Below, one piece after another: positions 50,729 through 63,553 of a stretch of DNA of 64,000 nucleotides. The translations under genes were made by a program, and so were the position numbers. Positions within the stretch are counted from its first letter, which is position 1. Each line of letters starts with the position of its first letter. The stretch comes from Halorubrum salipaludis (GTDB lineage Archaea > Halobacteriota > Halobacteria > Halobacteriales > Haloferacaceae). Under the pieces are notes generated by a model, which did not search any database, had not been told where the DNA came from, and worked only from the letters and a program-made list of their open reading frames with translations. The DNA is taken from the NCBI RefSeq assembly GCF_002286985.1, contig NZ_NSKC01000002.1, positions 496,001 to 560,000 on the forward strand, given 5' to 3'.

Positions 50729-53686
50729 TTAGTTGTTACGGCGGGTCGCGAGGAGCGCAGCCGCGATGAGCGCGACGAGAGCGACGAGCGCACCGAAGCC
50801 GGGCGTACCGTCTTCGGAGTCGCCATCGTCACCGTCTTCGCCGTCCTCACCGTCCATTCCGTCTTCACCGTCGTCGGAGCCGTCTTCACCGTCGTCGGAG
50901 CCGTCTTCACCGTCGTCGGAGCCGTCTTCACCGTCGTCGGAGCCGTCTTCACCGTCTTCACCGTCAGACGGTTCTTCGCGTTCTTCGACGATTTCGACCT
51001 CAACACGGTCCGTACTGTCACCGTCGTCCGCTTCGATGATGTACGTCCCAGTTTCGAGGTCAGACGTGTCTAAGCTGGCCGTCCACTGACCGTCGTTGCC
51101 CCACTCGTCGGTCGACACGGAATCGTAGTTCGTGTCGTCCTGACCGAGGATCTCGACGGTAATTGCTGCGATGTCGGACTGACGGTTGGTGTCACCGTCG
51201 ACAACCATGGTCTCGCCGGTCGCGACCGGGTTGACACCGCTAGATTCTGCTTCTTCGGGGTAGACATCGTTGATCGAGAGCGTCGCGTCGTTGAGACGGA
51301 AGTTCTCGCTGACGATCAGGTCGTCGCTCCCATCAGCGTCGACAGTGTTGGAGAGGATCCGACTGCGGATCTGGTCTCCACTGGAGCTGCCACCGCCAAT
51401 ATCGTTGATGTACTCAGCGAGAGTACCCGCATCGTTAACGTCCCCATTCCGGAGCTCTCCGTTGCCAACATCTCCGTCACGACCGAGCGAGATGACGTGC
51501 GCAGACACGGCACCCTGCGACAGGCTGCCGATCGCGATGTCATCTTCATCGAACTCGTTGTCGTCAACCGATGCAGTTGTCGCGACAGTGCGGCCGCGGC
51601 GGTCGACGAAGGCAACGACGACTTCGTCCTGACCAGCTGCGGTCCCTTCAACGTCAACCTCGCCGTCTTCTTGGGCGATCTGGCCGTTGATGAATCCGAA
51701 TTCAGCAGTGAGGTCGCCCTCTTCAACAGTCAGCGCGTACTGGCTGCTCGATGCGCTGCTGAAGTCGGACGTGCCGATCGAGCCATCGCTGTCTCTCGTG
51801 ACATCGTCAGTAACATCAGAGGCGTCGATCACACCGATGCGGTACCGGCCCTCGAACGAGAGGACGTTGTTACCGGCGCCGTCTCCCCGCGAGAGGCGGA
51901 CATCCTCTTCTTCGAACGTGTCGTCCGAGTCAACGCTGATCTCGTAGTCACCGTCGACCTCGACGGGCTGCCAGCGGCTGTTGTCGCGCACGTAGATGCG
52001 GACATCGTCAGCGCTCTCGGCAGTCCCGCTCACGTCAACCTGAGAGTTGACCGTGTAGGTACCCGACGGGCTGTCGAGCGTGACTTCGCCTTCGTTCACG
52101 TCGAAGCTCACGTCATCCGCGGAATTACCAGGGTTTTCGGGGTCGGCATTTTCGTACACGTCGAGATCAACTGACGAGTCGTCGAGGAACTGCGTCCGGA
52201 TCGAACCGGACGCCTGCGTGCCGTCAATTTCGACAACTGCGTACGCGAAGTCAATGTTGTCGAAGTCCTCGACATCGTCAGCATCGGTCACAGTGCCGTC
52301 GACAACAAGGCCGCGCTCCGTCGTATCCTGAACGTTGCGGAAGATACGCTCGACGTTGCTGGCTGAGACACTGTTGCGGAAGTCAGAGGCCTCGATGGCG
52401 ACGACGTGCGACTGGCCGTTCGTGCCACCGCTGACAGTGTACCCGAGGTTACTGCCCTGCGTCACCGAATCCTCGGCAGTATCTATCGACAGGGAATCCT
52501 GGTCGGTTACCTCGATGGTATACTCTTCGACAACAGCGTCGTGATCGAGATTGTTCGAGCCCTCGAAGACGACGGTGTACTCACCCGCGCCTTCGTCGGA
52601 GAGGTCAAGGGCGACTTCGCCGTTACCTACACCCTCATCCGTAGCCTCGATAGTGGTATTGTCCGGCGTGAGAACTTCGTTGGTGATGTCCGCACCACCC
52701 TCGTCTTCGACAGTAAGAGCGATGTCTTCGGCTTCGCCGAAGTTCCACTCAGCGGCAATCGTGAGCTCATCAGCACTGCTGGCGCCAACCTGGGAGACAT
52801 CGCTGCCGCCCAGCTGGACCTCTGCAGTGTTGATCCGCGGCCGGACGACAGTGGTCGTGAAGCCACGGTCAGCACTAGTCGCGCCGGGGTTCTCAGCGTA
52901 GGTACCAGTCTCCTGGTCATCTCGAATCGGCATCTGGAGGGGCGTACCCTCGCGGTTGCCGGAGGTCCCCTCGAGGCTGCTGGCCGGGACACGGTTGCCA
53001 TCCCCGTCAGTGAACCGGAGATCATCCTCGCCTTGGTAGATCGTGTTACCGCTGAGGATGATGGTGTCACCGGAAGGACCATGTTCAGTCCGGTGGTCGC
53101 TTCCTCCACCACCACTACTGCCGATGGTGAAGCTAGTGTCGTCGGCCACAACAGCAGTCCCGTTGTAGGAACCACCGCCGTCACCCTCGTGGAGACCAAC
53201 GGTCAGATTGTAGTCACCAGCATTTCCGTTCTGAGCACCGTTGACGGACACGTCGAGATCATCCCCGTCAGTGAGTTCAGCAGTACCACTGCTGAGCTCA
53301 ATAACCAGGAATCCCTCATTATCGTTTTCAACGATGTTGGTGGTAGTGTCCGGCGAGTCTATGACCGCGTCACCGTTGACTGTAACATTAACACCGTCGA
53401 GTGAATCAGTTCCGAATCCGCTGTCACCGATGTCTACGGAGACGTACTCGACGTCAGTACCGTTAGGTGCTTCTGAATTATTTACGATTGATGCGTCTAC
53501 TGTATAGTTCGTATTCGCATTTTCAGTGCTATCATCGATCGCAACATTGTCGACCGAGATATCGCCACCCTCCTGAATAGCTGCTGCCGGCGCTGCAGCG
53601 AAGCCGATCGCAGCCATGGAGATGACCATGATAACACTGAAGAAGATCGCGTTGACCTTCTTGCGTGTATTATTGTCGTTTGTCAT
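50729..53686 (-). CDS. csg: Major S-layer glycoprotein
   Basis: The 985-residue protein opens MTNDNNTRKKVNAIFFSVIMVISMAAIGFAAAPAAA, the classic S-layer signal peptide. It has an extended beta-rich ectodomain with many NxS/T sequons and BGTF-type domains, an Asp/Glu/Gly-rich stalk, and the C-terminal anchor TPGFGALVALVALIAAALLATRR (PGF-CTERM, cleaved and lipid-modified through archaeosortase A). The Thr-rich spacer of Haloferax and Halobacterium is replaced here by acidic Ser-Asp-Asp-Gly-Glu-Asp-Gly repeats. It forms the cell wall lattice and is N-glycosylated by AglB, encoded 9 kb away. Confidence 0.95.
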   Translation of the reverse strand: MTNDNNTRKKVNAIFFSVIMVISMAAIGFAAAPAAAIQEGGDISVDNVAIDDSTENANTNYTVDASIVNNSEAPNGTDVEYVSVDIGDSGFGTDSLDGVNVTVNGDAVIDSPDTTTNIVENDNEGFLVIELSSGTAELTDGDDLDVSVNGAQNGNAGDYNLTVGLHEGDGGGSYNGTAVVADDTSFTIGSSGGGGSDHRTEHGPSGDTIILSGNTIYQGEDDLRFTDGDGNRVPASSLEGTSGNREGTPLQMPIRDDQETGTYAENPGATSADRGFTTTVVRPRINTAEVQLGGSDVSQVGASSADELTIAAEWNFGEAEDIALTVEDEGGADITNEVLTPDNTTIEATDEGVGNGEVALDLSDEGAGEYTVVFEGSNNLDHDAVVEEYTIEVTDQDSLSIDTAEDSVTQGSNLGYTVSGGTNGQSHVVAIEASDFRNSVSASNVERIFRNVQDTTERGLVVDGTVTDADDVEDFDNIDFAYAVVEIDGTQASGSIRTQFLDDSSVDLDVYENADPENPGNSADDVSFDVNEGEVTLDSPSGTYTVNSQVDVSGTAESADDVRIYVRDNSRWQPVEVDGDYEISVDSDDTFEEEDVRLSRGDGAGNNVLSFEGRYRIGVIDASDVTDDVTRDSDGSIGTSDFSSASSSQYALTVEEGDLTAEFGFINGQIAQEDGEVDVEGTAAGQDEVVVAFVDRRGRTVATTASVDDNEFDEDDIAIGSLSQGAVSAHVISLGRDGDVGNGELRNGDVNDAGTLAEYINDIGGGSSSGDQIRSRILSNTVDADGSDDLIVSENFRLNDATLSINDVYPEEAESSGVNPVATGETMVVDGDTNRQSDIAAITVEILGQDDTNYDSVSTDEWGNDGQWTASLDTSDLETGTYIIEADDGDSTDRVEVEIVEEREEPSDGEDGEDGSDDGEDGSDDGEDGSDDGEDGSDDGEDGMDGEDGEDGDDGDSEDGTPGFGALVALVALIAAALLATRRNN
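50859..50942 (-). repeat. Four perfect 21-base repeats in the S-layer stalk
   Basis: The unit CCGTCTTCACCGTCGTCGGAG occurs four times without change (50,859-50,942), with partial copies beside it. It encodes a seven-residue acidic unit (SDDGEDG) in the stalk just before the PGF-CTERM helix. Perfect conservation suggests recent slippage, so stalk length may vary between strains. Confidence 0.93.
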
Positions 53687-55916: not shown

Positions 55917-56465
55917 TCACTCAGAGTCGAGATCGGCCGCGTCGAGTGCTGCGTTCCACGAGCCAAAGTGCCGCTGATACGTGGTTGGACTGTACGGGCC
56001 CTTTGCAGCCATGTCGGCCATTGTTGGTGTGTCTCCCTGCTTCTCTGCGAGTCGCTCAAGTGCAGCAAGCAACTCGTCGTCGGGCACACGGCGGTTGGCT
56101 CTGGAATTGATGGGCTCGAGGCCGGCGGCGTCGAGTGCATCATCCCACGAGCCGAACCGGTCCCGGTACACTTTCGACCAGTGGCGCCCGTGGTCGTTCA
56201 TCTGGGTGGTCGTGGGCGATTCACCGAGCTCGGCAGCCAACGCGTGTAGCGCGTCAATGAGCTCCTCGGTGGTGAGTTCCGTCTTTTGATCCCGCGGCTC
56301 GAATCCTGCGCGATCGACAGCCTCCTGCCATGAGCCAAATCGTCGAAAGAATGTCATCACACTGTGCGTACCATGGGTGCGATAATCTTGGATAGAGGGC
56401 GTCCGATCGACGACATCCGCGACGACACGAATATCTGCAAGCAGTTCCTCATCGCTATGGCCCAT
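55917..56465 (-). CDS. Protein made of homing-endonuclease-associated repeats
   Basis: The 182-residue protein contains three repeats of about 55-60 residues (about 2-58, 65-120 and 125-180). Each follows the pattern DELL..L..LA...G.TPT...M...G.YS..TY..RFGSW..AL..AGL, the homing-endonuclease-associated repeat (PF18780), thought to bind DNA. No nuclease domain is attached. It may be a stand-alone DNA-binding protein. Such genes recur near the S-layer and aglB loci of haloarchaea, from memory. Length and reading frame are intact. Confidence 0.88.
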   Translation of the reverse strand: MGHSDEELLADIRVVADVVDRTPSIQDYRTHGTHSVMTFFRRFGSWQEAVDRAGFEPRDQKTELTTEELIDALHALAAELGESPTTTQMNDHGRHWSKVYRDRFGSWDDALDAAGLEPINSRANRRVPDDELLAALERLAEKQGDTPTMADMAAKGPYSPTTYQRHFGSWNAALDAADLDSE

Positions 56466-56576
56466 ATCCGACAGGAGTGTCCGCGAACTGCTTGAGTGAT
56501 TCGGAGGGCAGCTACGACCTTGGCGACATTCAAACGCCTGGGATGATTTGTGAAGAGGTCATGACTCGAGAGTGGA

Positions 56577-57917
56577 TTATCCAGTCAATAGCGACGCGAT
56601 GTCGTCGGACCCGAACAGCGACCAGTCGTCGCCGAGTTCGGCTTCGAGCCCGTCGGTGAATCCGCTCTTCGAGAAGAGCGCGAACTGCTCGGTCCGATCG
56701 GGCGGGCCCCAGCGAACGCGATCCGCCGTCGCGCGAAGTGACTTGACGAGCGCGCGTCCCATGGGTTCGTCGGTCCACTTGCACTCTGCGAGGAGGACTG
56801 ATCGTCGGCCGGATCCAGCCCGACGATGTCGATCTCGTCTTCGCCGTACCACCATCGCCCGACTTCCGAGTACGGATCGAGACCGGAGCGACGAATCGCG
56901 GTTCAGACCGCCTCGAGACAGACATGCTTGAAGATCCGGGGAACGTGATCTGGGAGCGCTGGTTCGATCGTCCCCTCGTACACCACGCCGGGAACCTCTT
57001 GAATGACGGAGCGGTTCGGTTCGACAAACCGGAACCAAAAGCGCAAGAACTCGTCGGCGACACCGTACCGCGATCGCTTCGACTGTTTGGCGGACGCCGT
57101 CACAGGTACCTCTCGATCGGGGAGTCTGAGACGGCGGAGCGTCTGCAGATACTTCGAGACCGGCCCCGACCCAATTCCCGTCGCACCGGCAATCTCGTTT
57201 GGCGTGATGTGGCCTGTCGCGATCGCTTCGAGGATGCTCAGGTAGCGTGCGGGGTCCCGGAGTTCGGTCTGCAACAGGAATTCGGGCTCGTTGTACAACA
57301 CCTCTGCAGGCGTTAGGATCTGCTCTTGGACGTTCGTTTACAGCGACTGCGAGTAGTCGAATTGCAGCAGGTACATCGGCGTGCCGCCCGTGATAGCGTA
57401 CGATCGAACTATGTCCTCGAAGTCATAGTCGATCACCCCACGAGCCTCGGTAAACGAGACCGGTTCGAGATCGATCTAGCCCGTACGGCGACCGTACAGC
57501 GGGCTCTCGTGGCCCAGAACCCTTGACTCCATCGTGCTCACGCTTGAGCCACACAGGACCAACATCGATTCGGTCTCCGACAGCTGTTCGTCGACGAACG
57601 ACTGGAGGTACGATGGGATCGAGTCGCTCGTCGGCGAGCCGCTCGCCGAGGTACGCGAAGACGTCGTCCCAGCCGTCGATACGCGGAACGCGACCGTTGA
57701 ACTGCGCCGCGATTTGCTCGACGAACTTCTCGCGCTGGCGGGGCTCGGCCTCCTGTGCCGCGAGAAAATATAGATGGGGCCGATCGGCACAAAAGCGTTT
57801 GAGCAGCTCGGACTTCCCGACCCGCCGATGTCCGTACATGACTTGGAACGCTTAGCCGGGCGACTCGAATACCGAGTCGAGCGCGACGAGTTTGTCGCGC
57901 CTGTCGTAGAAAGTCAT
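56577..57917 (-). pseudogene. Broken archaeal AAA ATPase (DUF234-type)
   Basis: The gene starts MTFYDRRDKLVALDSVFESPG and hits a TAA at codon 22 (57,852-57,854), then continues in frame with AFQVMYGHRRVGKSELLKRFCADRPHLYFLAAQEAEPRQ (Walker A). A frameshift near 57,620 leads to SYLQSFVDEQLSETESMLVLCGSSVSTMES, and further stops and shifts follow near 57,480, 57,340 and 56,900. The last part has the winged helix AIATGHITPNEIAGATGIGSGPVSKYL and the DUF234 nuclease-like tail VLLAECKWTDEPMG. At least four lesions make it non-functional. Intact members are archaeal STAND-like ATPases of uncertain role. Confidence 0.9.
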
Positions 57918-58038: not shown

Positions 58039-58983
58039 CTAGTACTCGATCGCCGCGGAGTAGCGGTCGAGGACGAACACGACCGCGGCGCCGCCGACCG
58101 CCACAAGCGCGAACCGCGGCGCCGCCGCCCGCCACGTCTCACCGCTCTCGGCCAGCCGGATCGACACCTCGACGAGGGGCGCCCGGAGCGCGCCCACGAT
58201 CAGGCTGACGAGGAACGCGAGCGTCGCGGCGCGGGCGCGGGCGAGTGCGTACTTCACGGCGTGGGCGATCGTGACCACGCCGACGACGCCTCCGAGGAGG
58301 AACGCCGCGATCGTCGGGGCGACCTCGGTGAGGCCGGCGGCGCCCTCGCCTCGCGCGAGCGCCACCGCCCCGTCGATCGCCCGGCTCACCACGCCGGACA
58401 TGTGCTCGTACTGCCCGAGCACGACCAGTAGGAGTGAACCAGAGACACCGGGGAGAACCATTGCGCTCACCGCGACCGCGCCCGCGACGAACACGACCGG
58501 CAGCGAGCTGTCGAGCGCGGTCGAGGCGTACCCCGACGCGAGGAAGGCGACTGTGAACCCCGCGATCGCGGCTCCCTGCCGACGCGGTGTGTCGAGCGCG
58601 ACGCCGTCCAAAAGTACTGCCGCCGAGGCCGCGATCAGGCCGAAAAAGAAGCCGTACGTCGCCACTGGCTGTGTCGTAAGCAGGTGGTTAACCACGCTCA
58701 ACACGGCAACAACCGCGGTGGCGATCCCCGCGCCAAGCACGAGGAGGAACGCGCCGTCGATCTCATGAAACGCCGCGCGCGCGTCCGGGATGTTCGCGGG
58801 GCGGACGCCCGCGAGGATCCGCCGGAGCCGCGCGGGGTCGACCGCGGTAATCGCCGCGATCAGCCGCTCGTAGATCCCGACAACGAGCGCAATTGTCCCG
58901 CCGGAGACGCCAGGCACCGCATCCGCACTACCCATCGCGACGCCTTTCAGATACAGCGCAATCCACTCCCGGTGTGTAGCCAT
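58039..58983 (-). CDS. DUF368 (PopT-like) membrane protein, probable polyprenyl-phosphate translocase
   Basis: The 314-residue protein has about eight to ten hydrophobic helices. KGVAMGSADAVPGVSGGTIALVVGIYERLI at the N-terminus is the DUF368 signature, and a second inverted-style motif VAVSAMVLPGVSGSLLLVVLGQYE occurs at about 170-193, consistent with an internal duplication. Bacterial DUF368 proteins (PopT) carry undecaprenyl phosphate across the membrane for reuse. Its ATG lies 9 bases after the aglB stop, so it should be co-transcribed with aglB. Recycling of dolichyl phosphate released by AglB is a direct inference. Confidence 0.92.
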   Translation of the reverse strand: MATHREWIALYLKGVAMGSADAVPGVSGGTIALVVGIYERLIAAITAVDPARLRRILAGVRPANIPDARAAFHEIDGAFLLVLGAGIATAVVAVLSVVNHLLTTQPVATYGFFFGLIAASAAVLLDGVALDTPRRQGAAIAGFTVAFLASGYASTALDSSLPVVFVAGAVAVSAMVLPGVSGSLLLVVLGQYEHMSGVVSRAIDGAVALARGEGAAGLTEVAPTIAAFLLGGVVGVVTIAHAVKYALARARAATLAFLVSLIVGALRAPLVEVSIRLAESGETWRAAAPRFALVAVGGAAVVFVLDRYSAAIEY

Positions 58984-58992
58984 CGGACGCGG

Positions 58993-61900
58993 TTACGCCT
59001 CAAGGGGCATGAATGGGATGGTGGACACGGTTGCAAGTGGAGCAACGGGGTGGGCTACGACTGTCGTTGGCGCAGTAGCCAGCGAACTCGTGTTTGTGTC
59101 GCCGTCAGTGTCGCTGCTCTCATCACTCGTCGCGCCATCACTTGCCGTCTCGCTGTCCCCACTCGTAGTCTCGTTTTCGCTGCTCTCATCGTCGAGTGTG
59201 GTCTCTTCAAGTTCGACCGTCGCAGCCGCATCGTCTTCACCGACGACCTGGGACTCACTCACGTCGACCTCACCAGTGAGTGCGGTCGGGGTGCCGTTGT
59301 CGATCGACACGCCAGCCGAGAGCTGGTAGGGACCGGTGGCGCGAACGCTCGTATTGGTGTAGCCGTTCTCAGGGCCGAATTCGTCGTAGCCCGTCGTCGA
59401 GTACGGCACTGTCAACTCGAAGTTCCCGTTCTCGTCGGCCTCCGCGTACTGCGTGTACGTGAACGTTTGTCCCGAGGACTTCTCCATCTGGACGGTTGCG
59501 CGCACCTCTTGGCCGGGCTCAGCGCCCGACCCCTCGATCGTCGCGCCGGGGACGCGTTCGAATGTCTTTACGAAGTCATCTTGGAACGCCTGCAGGGTTG
59601 ACTCGCCGAGGACGCTCTGGACATCGACACCGAGCTGCTGGAGGACCTGCACCTGTAGCGCCGAGGGCGACTGACCCGCCGATTGCGATGCGTGGACGAG
59701 CCGTTGGTGTTCGAGCGCTTCGACGCGTTCAGAGGGGAGAGCGCCAACGCCGCCGATTTGCGCGCTACCGTCTTCCTCGACATACGCACGTGCGGCCGAG
59801 ACGTTGTCGAACTGCCGGATGGTGTTCCTCGGATCAGACGGGAGGGTGTCGACTTCGATCTGCTCGCCGTTCGCGGTTTGAGCGGTTTGGGTCTCCCAGT
59901 CGACGACGACTGGGCGCGGTTCGACCGCGCTACCATAGTGTTCGTACAGACGGATCATCTGGCTTTCGTGATACCGTTGGGTGTTCACCTGCATTACCGT
60001 CTGGAATCCGCCCTGCTCGGTCTGCTGGTAGAGGACGCGGTTGAAGTCCGAGCGCGTCTCATTGCCGGAGTAGAACGTGACGGGCGCGCCGAACTTGGAG
60101 TTCGGCGACGCCATCTGCGAGTCGACCATCACGTAGCGGGTGTTCTCACCCTCATCGCTCTGGCTCGCGAGCACCTCGGTGGATGCCTCCTCACTCGGCG
60201 CGAGGAGATAGTCAGCGGCGGCGCCCGCGTTCTGCTGGAACGGGTTCGCGTTCGGGATGCGTTCGGCTCTGGTGGTGATCCAGTGGCCGTAGTCCCACCA
60301 CGACTGCACGCCGTACGCACCCTCCGGGTAGTCGAAGTCGTCGTCTGCGGGGCGCTCGTAGGTGTCGTACGGGTCCATCGCATTGTCCGCGCCTTCGAGT
60401 TCGCCCGGCTGGGGCGTCTCGTCGTTCATCCACTGAAGGCTGCCGTCCCACTGGGTGACACTGCCAGGGCCAGTGTTCGCGCCCGCGGCCCAGACGGGGG
60501 TTGCCATCGCGACGAGCGGGACGATGAGGATGACGACGAGCACGATCGCGCCCATCGCCTGCCACCCCTCGATGTCGCGGACGTTTCGGAGGGAGGGAAG
60601 CGAGAGGAAGTCGACAGCCAGCTGGACAAAGTAGGCTGCGCCGACCGCGACGACGACGGCGAGGTAGTAGTTGAACCGGACCTGGGTGAACGCGGCACTG
60701 CCGATAAAAGCAGCCCACACGACGAAGTACAGCTCCTCGGCGTCGTACTCAACGAGGAACGTCGCGCCGACGAGGAAGGCCGCCGCGATCACGAGGCCGA
60801 CCACCTGCCAACTCACGCCGACGACGCCACCAATGGCGTCGTAGAGTTGCGGGACCGCGTAGACGGAGCCGATCACGGCGAGTGCGGCCGGGATGTAGAG
60901 GGTGTGGTTCGTGTCGTCGGAGCGGTAGAGGGGGCGTGCGAGGATGTAGAGGACTGCGGCGAGCGCGAGGAAGAACGCGAGGCCGTACTGTCCGAGGACG
61001 AATTCGGCGAAGGAGGCATCTTGGAGAGGAGGAGCTCCTTCGCCGATTGTCTGGAAACTGGCGCGGGCGCTGAAGCCGACGAAGTTCAGGAGGTTGCTGG
61101 TGAGTGTCGACCACAGCGAGGGAACGGCGACCCAGACGACGCCTGCGGACGCAAGAATGAGACCGCTGACTGCAGGCGGGTACGTTGAGACATCAAGCTC
61201 GCGTCCTTCCCACAGGCGAGCCAGCCAAGCGAGAAAGACCGCACCGATGGCGACGCCGATTGGGAGTACTACTTGGAGGAGCGAATATCCCGTTGGGGTG
61301 AAGGAAAGATCTTCAAGAGGTATAACCTGCATCAAGCCTGTCACACTCATAGCGACTGCGCCAGCGAAGGCCACCGGTTCAGGGCTTGTCCCGTGATACA
61401 CGTCGCTCGTGATCTTGACTGCGAGGTAGACACCGGTGAACCCGACCATCAGAATGCCCGGCTGCCACGTCCAAATATAGAGGCCGAGCGCGACGCCGGC
61501 TGCAGCAGCGTACGTGAGCGGCCAACGGAGTGCACCGAAGTCGCGGTCAACGACGAGTTCCCAGACAGGTTTCTCGCGCTCGGCAACGGCGAAGGCGACG
61601 AGGAACGCGAGCACAGCGAGACTCTGGAAGAGGACCTCAGCCGCACTGTGGTCTGGAAAGCCGACAAGCGAGTAGCTGAAGAACGTTCCAGGAAGAAGGG
61701 CGAGCACGCTGGCGCCGACGAGAGCAGCGGTTCGATCGACGAAGCGGCGCGCTACGAAGTAGGTCGGGATCACAACGAGCGCGCCCGCGACCGGGGCCAT
61801 GATGAGCATGACCTCTTCGGTGCTCCCCATGATCGGGCGGGCAATCCAGATACTGACTGCCATGATGTGGTCCCAGAGTGTGCCGAACTGGCCAACGGCA

Positions 61901-62166
61901 TTACCGAACGGGAAGCCGGTCCACGGATCGAAGGAAATTGTGGTTGGCCAGTTTTCCAGAAGGTAGTTGGTCTCACGGAGGTGATACCAGGGATCGTTGC
62001 CGCGGAAGTACACCTCGCCGTCGCGGACGAAGTTGCCATACGACCGGAGCCGAGTCCATAGCATGAACGCAAACGCCCCAAGGAGGAGAGGGACGTGATA
62101 GTAGGACTCGAGATAATCGCGTATCGACATCTCCTCCGTATTAGGGGAGGAATCATTTCGGCTCAT
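58993..62166 (-). CDS. aglB: Oligosaccharyltransferase AglB
   Basis: The protein has 1057 residues from the ATG at 62,166; a TTG three codons upstream is less likely. About thirteen membrane helices occupy residues 25-560, with DPWYHLRETNYL near 78 (a metal-binding first-loop region) and further acidic loop residues. The soluble domain holds VQSWWDYGHWITT at about 622, the WWDYG catalytic signature of Stt3/AglB. The Ser/Glu/Thr-rich C-terminus ends in a short hydrophobic segment. It transfers lipid-linked glycans to Asn in NxS/T sequons of exported proteins such as the S-layer protein. The DUF368 gene follows in the operon. Confidence 0.97.
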   Translation of the reverse strand: MSRNDSSPNTEEMSIRDYLESYYHVPLLLGAFAFMLWTRLRSYGNFVRDGEVYFRGNDPWYHLRETNYLLENWPTTISFDPWTGFPFGNAVGQFGTLWDHIMAVSIWIARPIMGSTEEVMLIMAPVAGALVVIPTYFVARRFVDRTAALVGASVLALLPGTFFSYSLVGFPDHSAAEVLFQSLAVLAFLVAFAVAEREKPVWELVVDRDFGALRWPLTYAAAAGVALGLYIWTWQPGILMVGFTGVYLAVKITSDVYHGTSPEPVAFAGAVAMSVTGLMQVIPLEDLSFTPTGYSLLQVVLPIGVAIGAVFLAWLARLWEGRELDVSTYPPAVSGLILASAGVVWVAVPSLWSTLTSNLLNFVGFSARASFQTIGEGAPPLQDASFAEFVLGQYGLAFFLALAAVLYILARPLYRSDDTNHTLYIPAALAVIGSVYAVPQLYDAIGGVVGVSWQVVGLVIAAAFLVGATFLVEYDAEELYFVVWAAFIGSAAFTQVRFNYYLAVVVAVGAAYFVQLAVDFLSLPSLRNVRDIEGWQAMGAIVLVVILIVPLVAMATPVWAAGANTGPGSVTQWDGSLQWMNDETPQPGELEGADNAMDPYDTYERPADDDFDYPEGAYGVQSWWDYGHWITTRAERIPNANPFQQNAGAAADYLLAPSEEASTEVLASQSDEGENTRYVMVDSQMASPNSKFGAPVTFYSGNETRSDFNRVLYQQTEQGGFQTVMQVNTQRYHESQMIRLYEHYGSAVEPRPVVVDWETQTAQTANGEQIEVDTLPSDPRNTIRQFDNVSAARAYVEEDGSAQIGGVGALPSERVEALEHQRLVHASQSAGQSPSALQVQVLQQLGVDVQSVLGESTLQAFQDDFVKTFERVPGATIEGSGAEPGQEVRATVQMEKSSGQTFTYTQYAEADENGNFELTVPYSTTGYDEFGPENGYTNTSVRATGPYQLSAGVSIDNGTPTALTGEVDVSESQVVGEDDAAATVELEETTLDDESSENETTSGDSETASDGATSDESSDTDGDTNTSSLATAPTTVVAHPVAPLATVSTIPFMPLEA

Positions 62167-62605
62167 TACGTGCAACGACTGTCAAAATGCGCATAAGCCT
62201 TTTGACCTCGGTCCGGAGTCGAGTCTAGATGCTCTTGTGTGAGATCAAGTGACTTCAGGATCACCGAGAGTAATGTTTCCTATTGTATAGGAGCTCCCAA
62301 TTCATGAGATCTTCGATAACCCTCATACGACAAAATTCGGCGATTGATACAATTTCATTTGGTCAATAATCGACTCAATTGTGGCACCTAGTCAAGCCGT
62401 CAATCAGGCGGAACCACTGTGGTGTTTTGTTCATAGGACGTCGTGCAGCGAATAGAAATACATAGTAGAGTTTGGAACCGAAACTATGCTGGTGAAACTC
62501 ATTTTGTGGGATATCGTTGCTGGAGGTGAAGTTGAATGACCCGGAGTCCGGGAATACACTGTGGAGAGTAAGTCTTATCTTTAAAAGTGCTAAACCTATG
62601 TGTAA
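62167..62605. other. Divergent control region between aglB and the glycosyltransferase
   Basis: No convincing gene is seen. TCTTTAAAA at 62,578-62,586 is a good TATA box for the rightward glycosyltransferase, with 20-28 bases to its ATG, implying a leaderless mRNA. GCATAAGCC near 62,193 may serve aglB. The middle is A/T-rich and has frequent stops. Confidence 0.6.
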
Positions 62606-63553
62606 ATGAAGGTCTCCGTCGTTATCTGTACGTACACGATGGATCGCTACGACGTCTTCACGGAGGCCGTCGAGAGTGTTCTTGCACAGACCTACGATCC
62701 GATCGAAATCGTACTCGTGATCGACGGTAATCCCGACGTGTACAAGCGAGCAGTTGAGGACTTTGGCGGCCGCGAAGACGTTTTGATCTCTGACAACGAT
62801 GAGAATCAGGGAATCTCGTTTAGTCGGACAAGAGGTGCCGAGCTTGCGTCTGGTGAAATTGTTGCGTTCATCGATGATGATGGAGTGGCTGAGAAAGACT
62901 GGATCGCGAAGCATATTGAAACCTACGAGAAGTCTGATACGGTTGCCGTCGCCGGCTATGTCGCCCCAGACTGGGTGACCGAGAAACCGGAGTTTTTCCC
63001 CGAAGAATTCTACTGGCTCGTCGGCTGTACTGAAAAAGGGTTCGCGGAAAATGGTGAGGAGATACGAAACGGATACGGCTCGAACGTCTCGTACAAACGC
63101 GACGTATTCCTCAACGTTGGGGGATACGACGTGAACACTGGGCGGAAGGGCGATCGTCACATTCAGGCCCACGAAGCCCCCGTCGGGATTCGCATCCGTG
63201 AGGAGTACGCCAAAAGAGTTGTGTACACCGAGGATGCAGTTGTCCATCACAAGTTGTTCGACTATCGCGGCGAGTTTCGGTGGCTTGTGTTTCGGTCGTT
63301 CTGGCAGGGTTTCTCGAAGCGCGTGATGGAGTTATTATATCCAGGAGGGCAGAACAATGAGAGTGAATATTTGATTACGTTGTTCACTAACTACCTGCCT
63401 GATCGAGGAAAGAAAGCGATTATTGAGCGTTCACTTGCCCAAGTAAAACAGATTATTGCCATCCATGTATTCACAGCTGCGGTGGGTCTCGGATATCTCT
63501 ATGGTCTAACGAAGCGGGACCTATTAAGAGAGGAAGTTGACAAAACGGAGTAA
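62606..63553 (+). CDS. aglG: Family 2 glycosyltransferase, AglG-like
   Basis: The 315-residue GT-A enzyme starts MKVSVVICTYTMDRYDVFTEAVESVLAQTYDPIEIVLVIDG, has the acidic metal/sugar-nucleotide motif AFIDDDGVAEKDW at about 90-102, and a C-terminal domain with paired basic/aromatic residues (FRWLVFRSFWQGFSKRVMELL). A C-terminal hydrophobic segment (HVFTAAVGLGYLYGL) can hold it on the membrane. Position next to aglB and the overall pattern fit AglG, the hexuronic-acid transferase of the Haloferax N-glycan pathway. The exact sugar is an inference. Confidence 0.88.
   Translation: MKVSVVICTYTMDRYDVFTEAVESVLAQTYDPIEIVLVIDGNPDVYKRAVEDFGGREDVLISDNDENQGISFSRTRGAELASGEIVAFIDDDGVAEKDWIAKHIETYEKSDTVAVAGYVAPDWVTEKPEFFPEEFYWLVGCTEKGFAENGEEIRNGYGSNVSYKRDVFLNVGGYDVNTGRKGDRHIQAHEAPVGIRIREEYAKRVVYTEDAVVHHKLFDYRGEFRWLVFRSFWQGFSKRVMELLYPGGQNNESEYLITLFTNYLPDRGKKAIIERSLAQVKQIIAIHVFTAAVGLGYLYGLTKRDLLREEVDKTE

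Follow-up and report, generated by a model that had tools for sequence, protein, structure and literature searches.

What returns the spent lipid carrier to the inner side of the membrane once an archaeal N-glycan has been transferred to protein? This step is poorly defined, and the literature searched assigns no transporter to it in archaea. The question is raised by a 64,000-nucleotide stretch of the Halorubrum salipaludis genome (contig NZ_NSKC01000002.1, positions 496,001 to 560,000; the whole stretch is hereafter the window), in which aglB, encoding the archaeal oligosaccharyltransferase, is followed by a gene of DUF368 (PF04018, COG2035), the family of the bacterial undecaprenyl-phosphate translocases PopT and VCA0040. 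A preliminary description had placed the DUF368 start 9 bases after the aglB stop on the same strand and had read the signatures AVPGVSGGT and LPGVSGS in its product; the window coordinates agree with this spacing, and both motifs were located in the protein as follows.

58993 to 62166, minus strand: aglB, archaeal oligosaccharyltransferase of 1057 amino acids, ATG start at 62166, identified by TIGR04154 and its domains
58984 to 58992: 9-nucleotide gap from the aglB stop to the DUF368 start, read from the sequence
58039 to 58983, minus strand: DUF368 (PF04018; VCA0040-like, PopT-like) polytopic membrane protein of 314 amino acids, ATG start, identified by the PF04018 profile
58894 to 58917, minus strand: first loop motif VPGVSGGT, residues 23-30, at the break between helices 4-22 and 28-34 (DSSP of the model)
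58435 to 58455, minus strand: second loop motif LPGVSGS, residues 177-183, at the break between helices 161-176 and 182-188 (DSSP of the model)

DUF368 is the first gene 3' of aglB in the window, with the strand shared and nothing between. AglB scored 930 bits on TIGR04154 (cut-off 450) and also matched the STT3, AglB_core and AglB_L1 domains; an in-frame TTG at 62175 lies ahead of its ATG. The DUF368 reading frame scored 205 bits on PF04018 (E 1.6e-60), above the curated gathering cut-off of 26 bits.

To place this pair in the class Halobacteria, one DUF368 locus was taken from each of 85 genera and its strand and distance to aglB were measured. The gene aglB lay directly upstream of DUF368 on the same strand in 58 genera (57 surveyed and Halorubrum itself), which were spread over 9 of the 10 DUF368-bearing families. 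Four further genera had a single opposite-strand gene of about 430 amino acids between the two, encoding in the copy annotated a UDP-glucose/GDP-mannose dehydrogenase, as AglM of Haloferax likewise is. With the first possible start codon used, 36 pairs of the survey were spaced by -4 to +9 nucleotides, and 13 of them overlapped by 1-4 nucleotides. Among the named loci the pair was adjacent in 36 of 37, the sole exception being a second copy in Halonotius roseus, a species that also has an adjacent first copy. Within 54 clearly called loci, DUF368 was the gene after aglB in 45 and a divergent GT2 gene stood on the other side of aglB in 33, while the gene beyond DUF368 varied widely, the commonest one occurring in only 7. 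The adjacency is far from chance, and the pair is more than a frozen gene order, because the flank beyond DUF368 rearranges while the pair stays. Sharing a strand with no gene between and conserved across genera, aglB and DUF368 form a predicted operon. Adjacency confined to this one strain, an outcome that would have told against the preliminary description, is not what the survey found: the pair is class-wide and probably ancestral.

Both partners are almost universal in the class, PF04018 being detected in 386 and TIGR04154 in 387 of 391 genomes. In a tree of 127 DUF368 sequences, the haloarchaeal proteins split from the methanogen ones, adjacency to aglB was present in early-branching haloarchaeal lineages, and mapping it on the tree needed 10 changes as against 42.6 in shuffles. 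Distances of AglB and DUF368 at adjacent loci were correlated (r 0.56; the highest value in 1000 permutations was 0.15), as shared descent alone would also give. The simplest reading of these gene orders and the tree is that the pairing arose once, at the root of Halobacteria or close to it, and that the linkage was later lost or a second DUF368 clade (type B) took over; such replacement would apply to many Natrialbaceae-like genera and some genera of a further family (f3).

The protein itself has the sequence features of its family. Residues P24, G25, S27, G28 and T30 of the first loop and P178, G179, S181 and G182 of the second are invariant across 66 archaeal relatives. In the AlphaFold2 model (mean predicted local distance difference test score, pLDDT, 93.3) the protein is all helical, and its helices are interrupted exactly at VPGVSGG and LPGVSG. 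Comparison of the N-half and C-half profiles revealed an internal repeat (hhalign E 3e-14) in which the second motif aligned with the first, and such a repeated-half plan is typical of transporters. PopT and VCA0040 share the Pfam family, the PGVSGGT and PGVSGS loops and the internal repeat. The NCBIfam equivalog cut-offs of 400 bits were not reached (NF052564, 180 bits; NF052563 for PopT, 94 bits), and we therefore class the protein as a relative within PF04018, without claiming it as a proven equivalog of VCA0040 or PopT. The two loops also resemble the PGxSRSGxT loop of UppP/BacA, and a repeated fold occurs in both. A distant homology between these families was considered, since hhalign aligned them collinearly over their full length (P 0.0065); as block-shuffled controls reached equal or higher scores, it is not established. 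Relatives of DUF368 were absent from the viral contigs searched.

Functional evidence comes from Haloferax volcanii, whose DUF368 protein HVO_RS12060 partly rescued a Vibrio cholerae delta-vca0040 mutant (Sit et al., PMC9876793). The aglB gene of the same species is HVO_RS12050 (PMC5131992, PMC7749143). As these tags rise in fives, HVO_RS12060 lies two genes past aglB, which matches the order aglB, opposite-strand dehydrogenase, DUF368 in genus g6 of our survey, a genus that we infer to be Haloferax. Given this tag spacing and gene order, the complementing protein is the agl-locus DUF368 orthologue. We found no open-access paper that treats DUF368 and AglB together, subscription papers and preprints lying outside that search. 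The same complementation bears on the idea that the polyprenyl-phosphate role is bacterial only and that the haloarchaeal protein moves another phospholipid or an ion, or aids the folding or localisation of AglB. Against the equivalog profile of the V. cholerae type (cut-off 400 bits), haloarchaeal DUF368 proteins score only 139-192 bits, and the structural model of the window protein matches no solved structure, no relative of known structure being found by sequence and the fold searches giving only low-confidence helical-transporter matches. We nevertheless regard this idea as highly improbable, as the agl-locus Haloferax protein partly complements the V. cholerae DUF368 mutant and the signature loops are invariant.

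As the pairing is class-wide and the agl-locus protein of Haloferax complements the V. cholerae mutant, we consider it probable that haloarchaeal DUF368 is a polyprenyl-phosphate translocase kept as the partner of AglB, which returns unloaded dolichyl phosphate. The archaeal N-glycans characterised by 2015 derive from dolichol monophosphate (PMC4476749), and in Haloferax they are built on dolichol phosphate (PMC3871713). With a monophosphate carrier, transfer by AglB should free dolichyl phosphate directly, without a pyrophosphatase step, so that the release of dolichyl phosphate "or pyrophosphate" in the preliminary description is probably wrong for haloarchaea on its second term; the genome from which the window comes has no UppP/BacA. 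Dolichyl phosphate is of the same lipid class as that moved by the bacterial DUF368 family. AglB would transfer the glycan at the outer face from dolichyl-monophosphate-glycan to asparagine, and the carrier would stay behind in the outer leaflet as unloaded dolichyl phosphate; the DUF368 protein would bring it back to the cytoplasmic leaflet, where AglJ-type glycosyltransferases would reload it, and it would probably also serve other dolichyl-phosphate users of the cell. Dolichyl phosphate as the substrate, transport in the inward direction and the dependence of N-glycosylation on DUF368 are what we infer. The haloarchaeal protein would differ from PopT and VCA0040 in its expected carrier, dolichyl phosphate, in a cell that has no peptidoglycan, and in the coupling of its gene to that of an oligosaccharyltransferase. 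More tentatively, AglB and a return transporter dedicated to dolichyl phosphate may make up a single conserved two-gene unit in Halobacteria, often with translational coupling, the spent carrier possibly being handed over directly from AglB.

As its gene adjoins that of AglB, which uses up the loaded carrier, DUF368 might instead be an outward flippase of the glycan-loaded N-glycan precursor; the passages of the review PMC3871713 consulted name no flippase for the Haloferax tetrasaccharide-dolichol phosphate. This seems very unlikely to us, as bacterial members of the family transport the unloaded carrier and as DUF368 is conserved whereas the surrounding glycan-building genes vary. Moreover, the island that continues beyond the window end holds, besides glycosyltransferases and a nucleotidyltransferase, a Wzx-family flippase (PF01943), which from its family is predicted to be available for loaded carriers, and in Haloferax the flipping of loaded carriers is proposed to be the task of AglR and the related Agl15 (PMC3871713). 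Wzx, AglR and Agl15 resemble DUF368 in lipid-carrier transport and in belonging to the same pathway and island, but they are proposed to move loaded carriers outward and their protein family is distinct.

Unlinked copies bear on a broader alternative, in which DUF368 translocates polyprenyl phosphates generally, in adaptation to salt and pH, without a special tie to AglB, and the adjacency is an old operon kept because it co-expresses two constitutive membrane proteins. Almost every genome of the class has DUF368, be it linked to aglB or not, and its family has been tied to salt and alkaline pH (Sit et al., PMC9876793). The type-B clade comprises 28 haloarchaeal copies, never linked to aglB, which coexist with the aglB-linked copy or replace it (L135, L145, L152, L155, L156 and others). 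Their annotated neighbours are thermosome, amidohydrolase, methyltransferase, metallo-beta-lactamase, MutS-like and ATP-grasp genes, that is, unrelated housekeeping genes, and among those annotated no glycan or isoprenoid gene is conserved beside type-B copies. A retained DUF368 in a genome that has lost AglB, described below, also suits this alternative. We judge it unlikely, as the pair survives rearrangement of its flank and its genes often overlap, which suggests a shared process, and as AglB is expected to be a major supplier of dolichyl phosphate to the outer leaflet.

Several observations weigh against the role of DUF368 as the AglB-partnered return transporter. The rescue of V. cholerae was partial and concerned undecaprenyl phosphate (PMC9876793). 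The two genes are apart in 23 of the 85 genera, where DUF368 stands beside, for example, a thermosome, methyltransferase or MutS-like gene. One near-complete genome (G021), the only such case among the haloarchaea sampled, has aglG-aglB without DUF368, and the genome G225 (locus L109) keeps DUF368 in its customary position beside the c3-c6-c5 genes with aglB gone upstream and no AglB found in the genome, so that the role of DUF368 need not be limited to AglB. Outside Halobacteria, PF04018 was detected in only about 37 of 241 genomes of the phylum sample; among the genomes searched, DUF368 occurs only in Halobacteria and in a minority of the methanogens that belong to Halobacteriota. The methanogen copies were aglB-linked in 0 of 20 loci examined, and DUF368 is lacking in three control archaea that have AglB, namely Methanocaldococcus jannaschii, Sulfolobus acidocaldarius and Methanosarcina acetivorans. 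DUF368 is not a general archaeal carrier translocase. The preliminary description had called it the likely missing archaeal carrier translocase; its role as a haloarchaeal AglB partner is backed by the class-wide pairing and the Haloferax complementation, whereas the generality of the claim falls with the unlinked methanogen copies, the AglB-bearing archaea without DUF368 and the unlinked haloarchaeal genera. In several methanogens (L175, L177, L182) the vicinity of DUF368 holds, in place of aglB, a conserved gene of the NAD-dependent sugar epimerase type along with further conserved genes. Joint absence of AglB and DUF368 in G187, G205 and G306 was not used; the aglG relative is also missing there and the assemblies are fragmented, which is perhaps an assembly or binning gap.

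A further point on the same side is the presence of DedA-domain proteins in all 79 haloarchaea tested, which are possible alternative recyclers. DedA proteins of the UptA type (COG0586, PF09335) resemble DUF368 in returning undecaprenyl phosphate in bacteria and in being membrane proteins with re-entrant hairpins, but they belong to another Pfam family. The subfamily of undecaprenyl-phosphate flippases is recognised by a basic site, GRxxPxxR, in its second re-entrant helix (PMC10127716). Such a basic site was missing from 17 of 19 DedA proteins of DUF368-bearing haloarchaea, a sample that is a small part of the DedA of the class; in the remaining pair (L247, L251) a single one of the two arginines of the motif is retained (SNTxxFVRG), so that the sampled proteins hold none or one of them. 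The DedA proteins sampled (L239-L257) mostly resemble the TVP38-like subfamily and not undecaprenyl-phosphate flippases, with several distinct subtypes per genome. The DedA protein of G021 (L258, 444-1034) has best relatives in 96 other haloarchaea that are only 28-31% identical; it might be a replacement recycler, in what is a single case.

The wider surroundings of the pair in the window include two further glycosylation-related genes.

62606 to 63553, plus strand: aglG-type glycosyltransferase, divergent from aglB (NF041394, 513 bits, cut-off 440)
50729 to 53686, minus strand: S-layer glycoprotein of 985 amino acids (TIGR04216, 715 bits; PGF-CTERM)

The S-layer glycoprotein, whose gene lies about 4 kb past DUF368, is the expected main substrate of AglB. 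Just 3' of DUF368, short open reading frames in different frames with weak PF01637 and PF03008 matches (56530 to 57855, minus strand) look like a frameshifted remnant of an archaeal ATPase with C-terminal DUF234. Besides, a 182-amino-acid protein encoded at 55917 to 56465 on the minus strand lacks a nuclease domain and is built almost wholly from three copies of HNH_repeat (PF18780, 217 bits), a unit associated with homing endonucleases.

Deletions of aglB exist in Haloferax volcanii and Halorubrum lacusprofundi. The class-wide pairing and the complementation by the same orthologue make a simple genetic test feasible in these two species. If the proposed role is true, the story of undecaprenyl-phosphate translocases in the cell walls of bacteria would extend to the glycoproteins of archaea.

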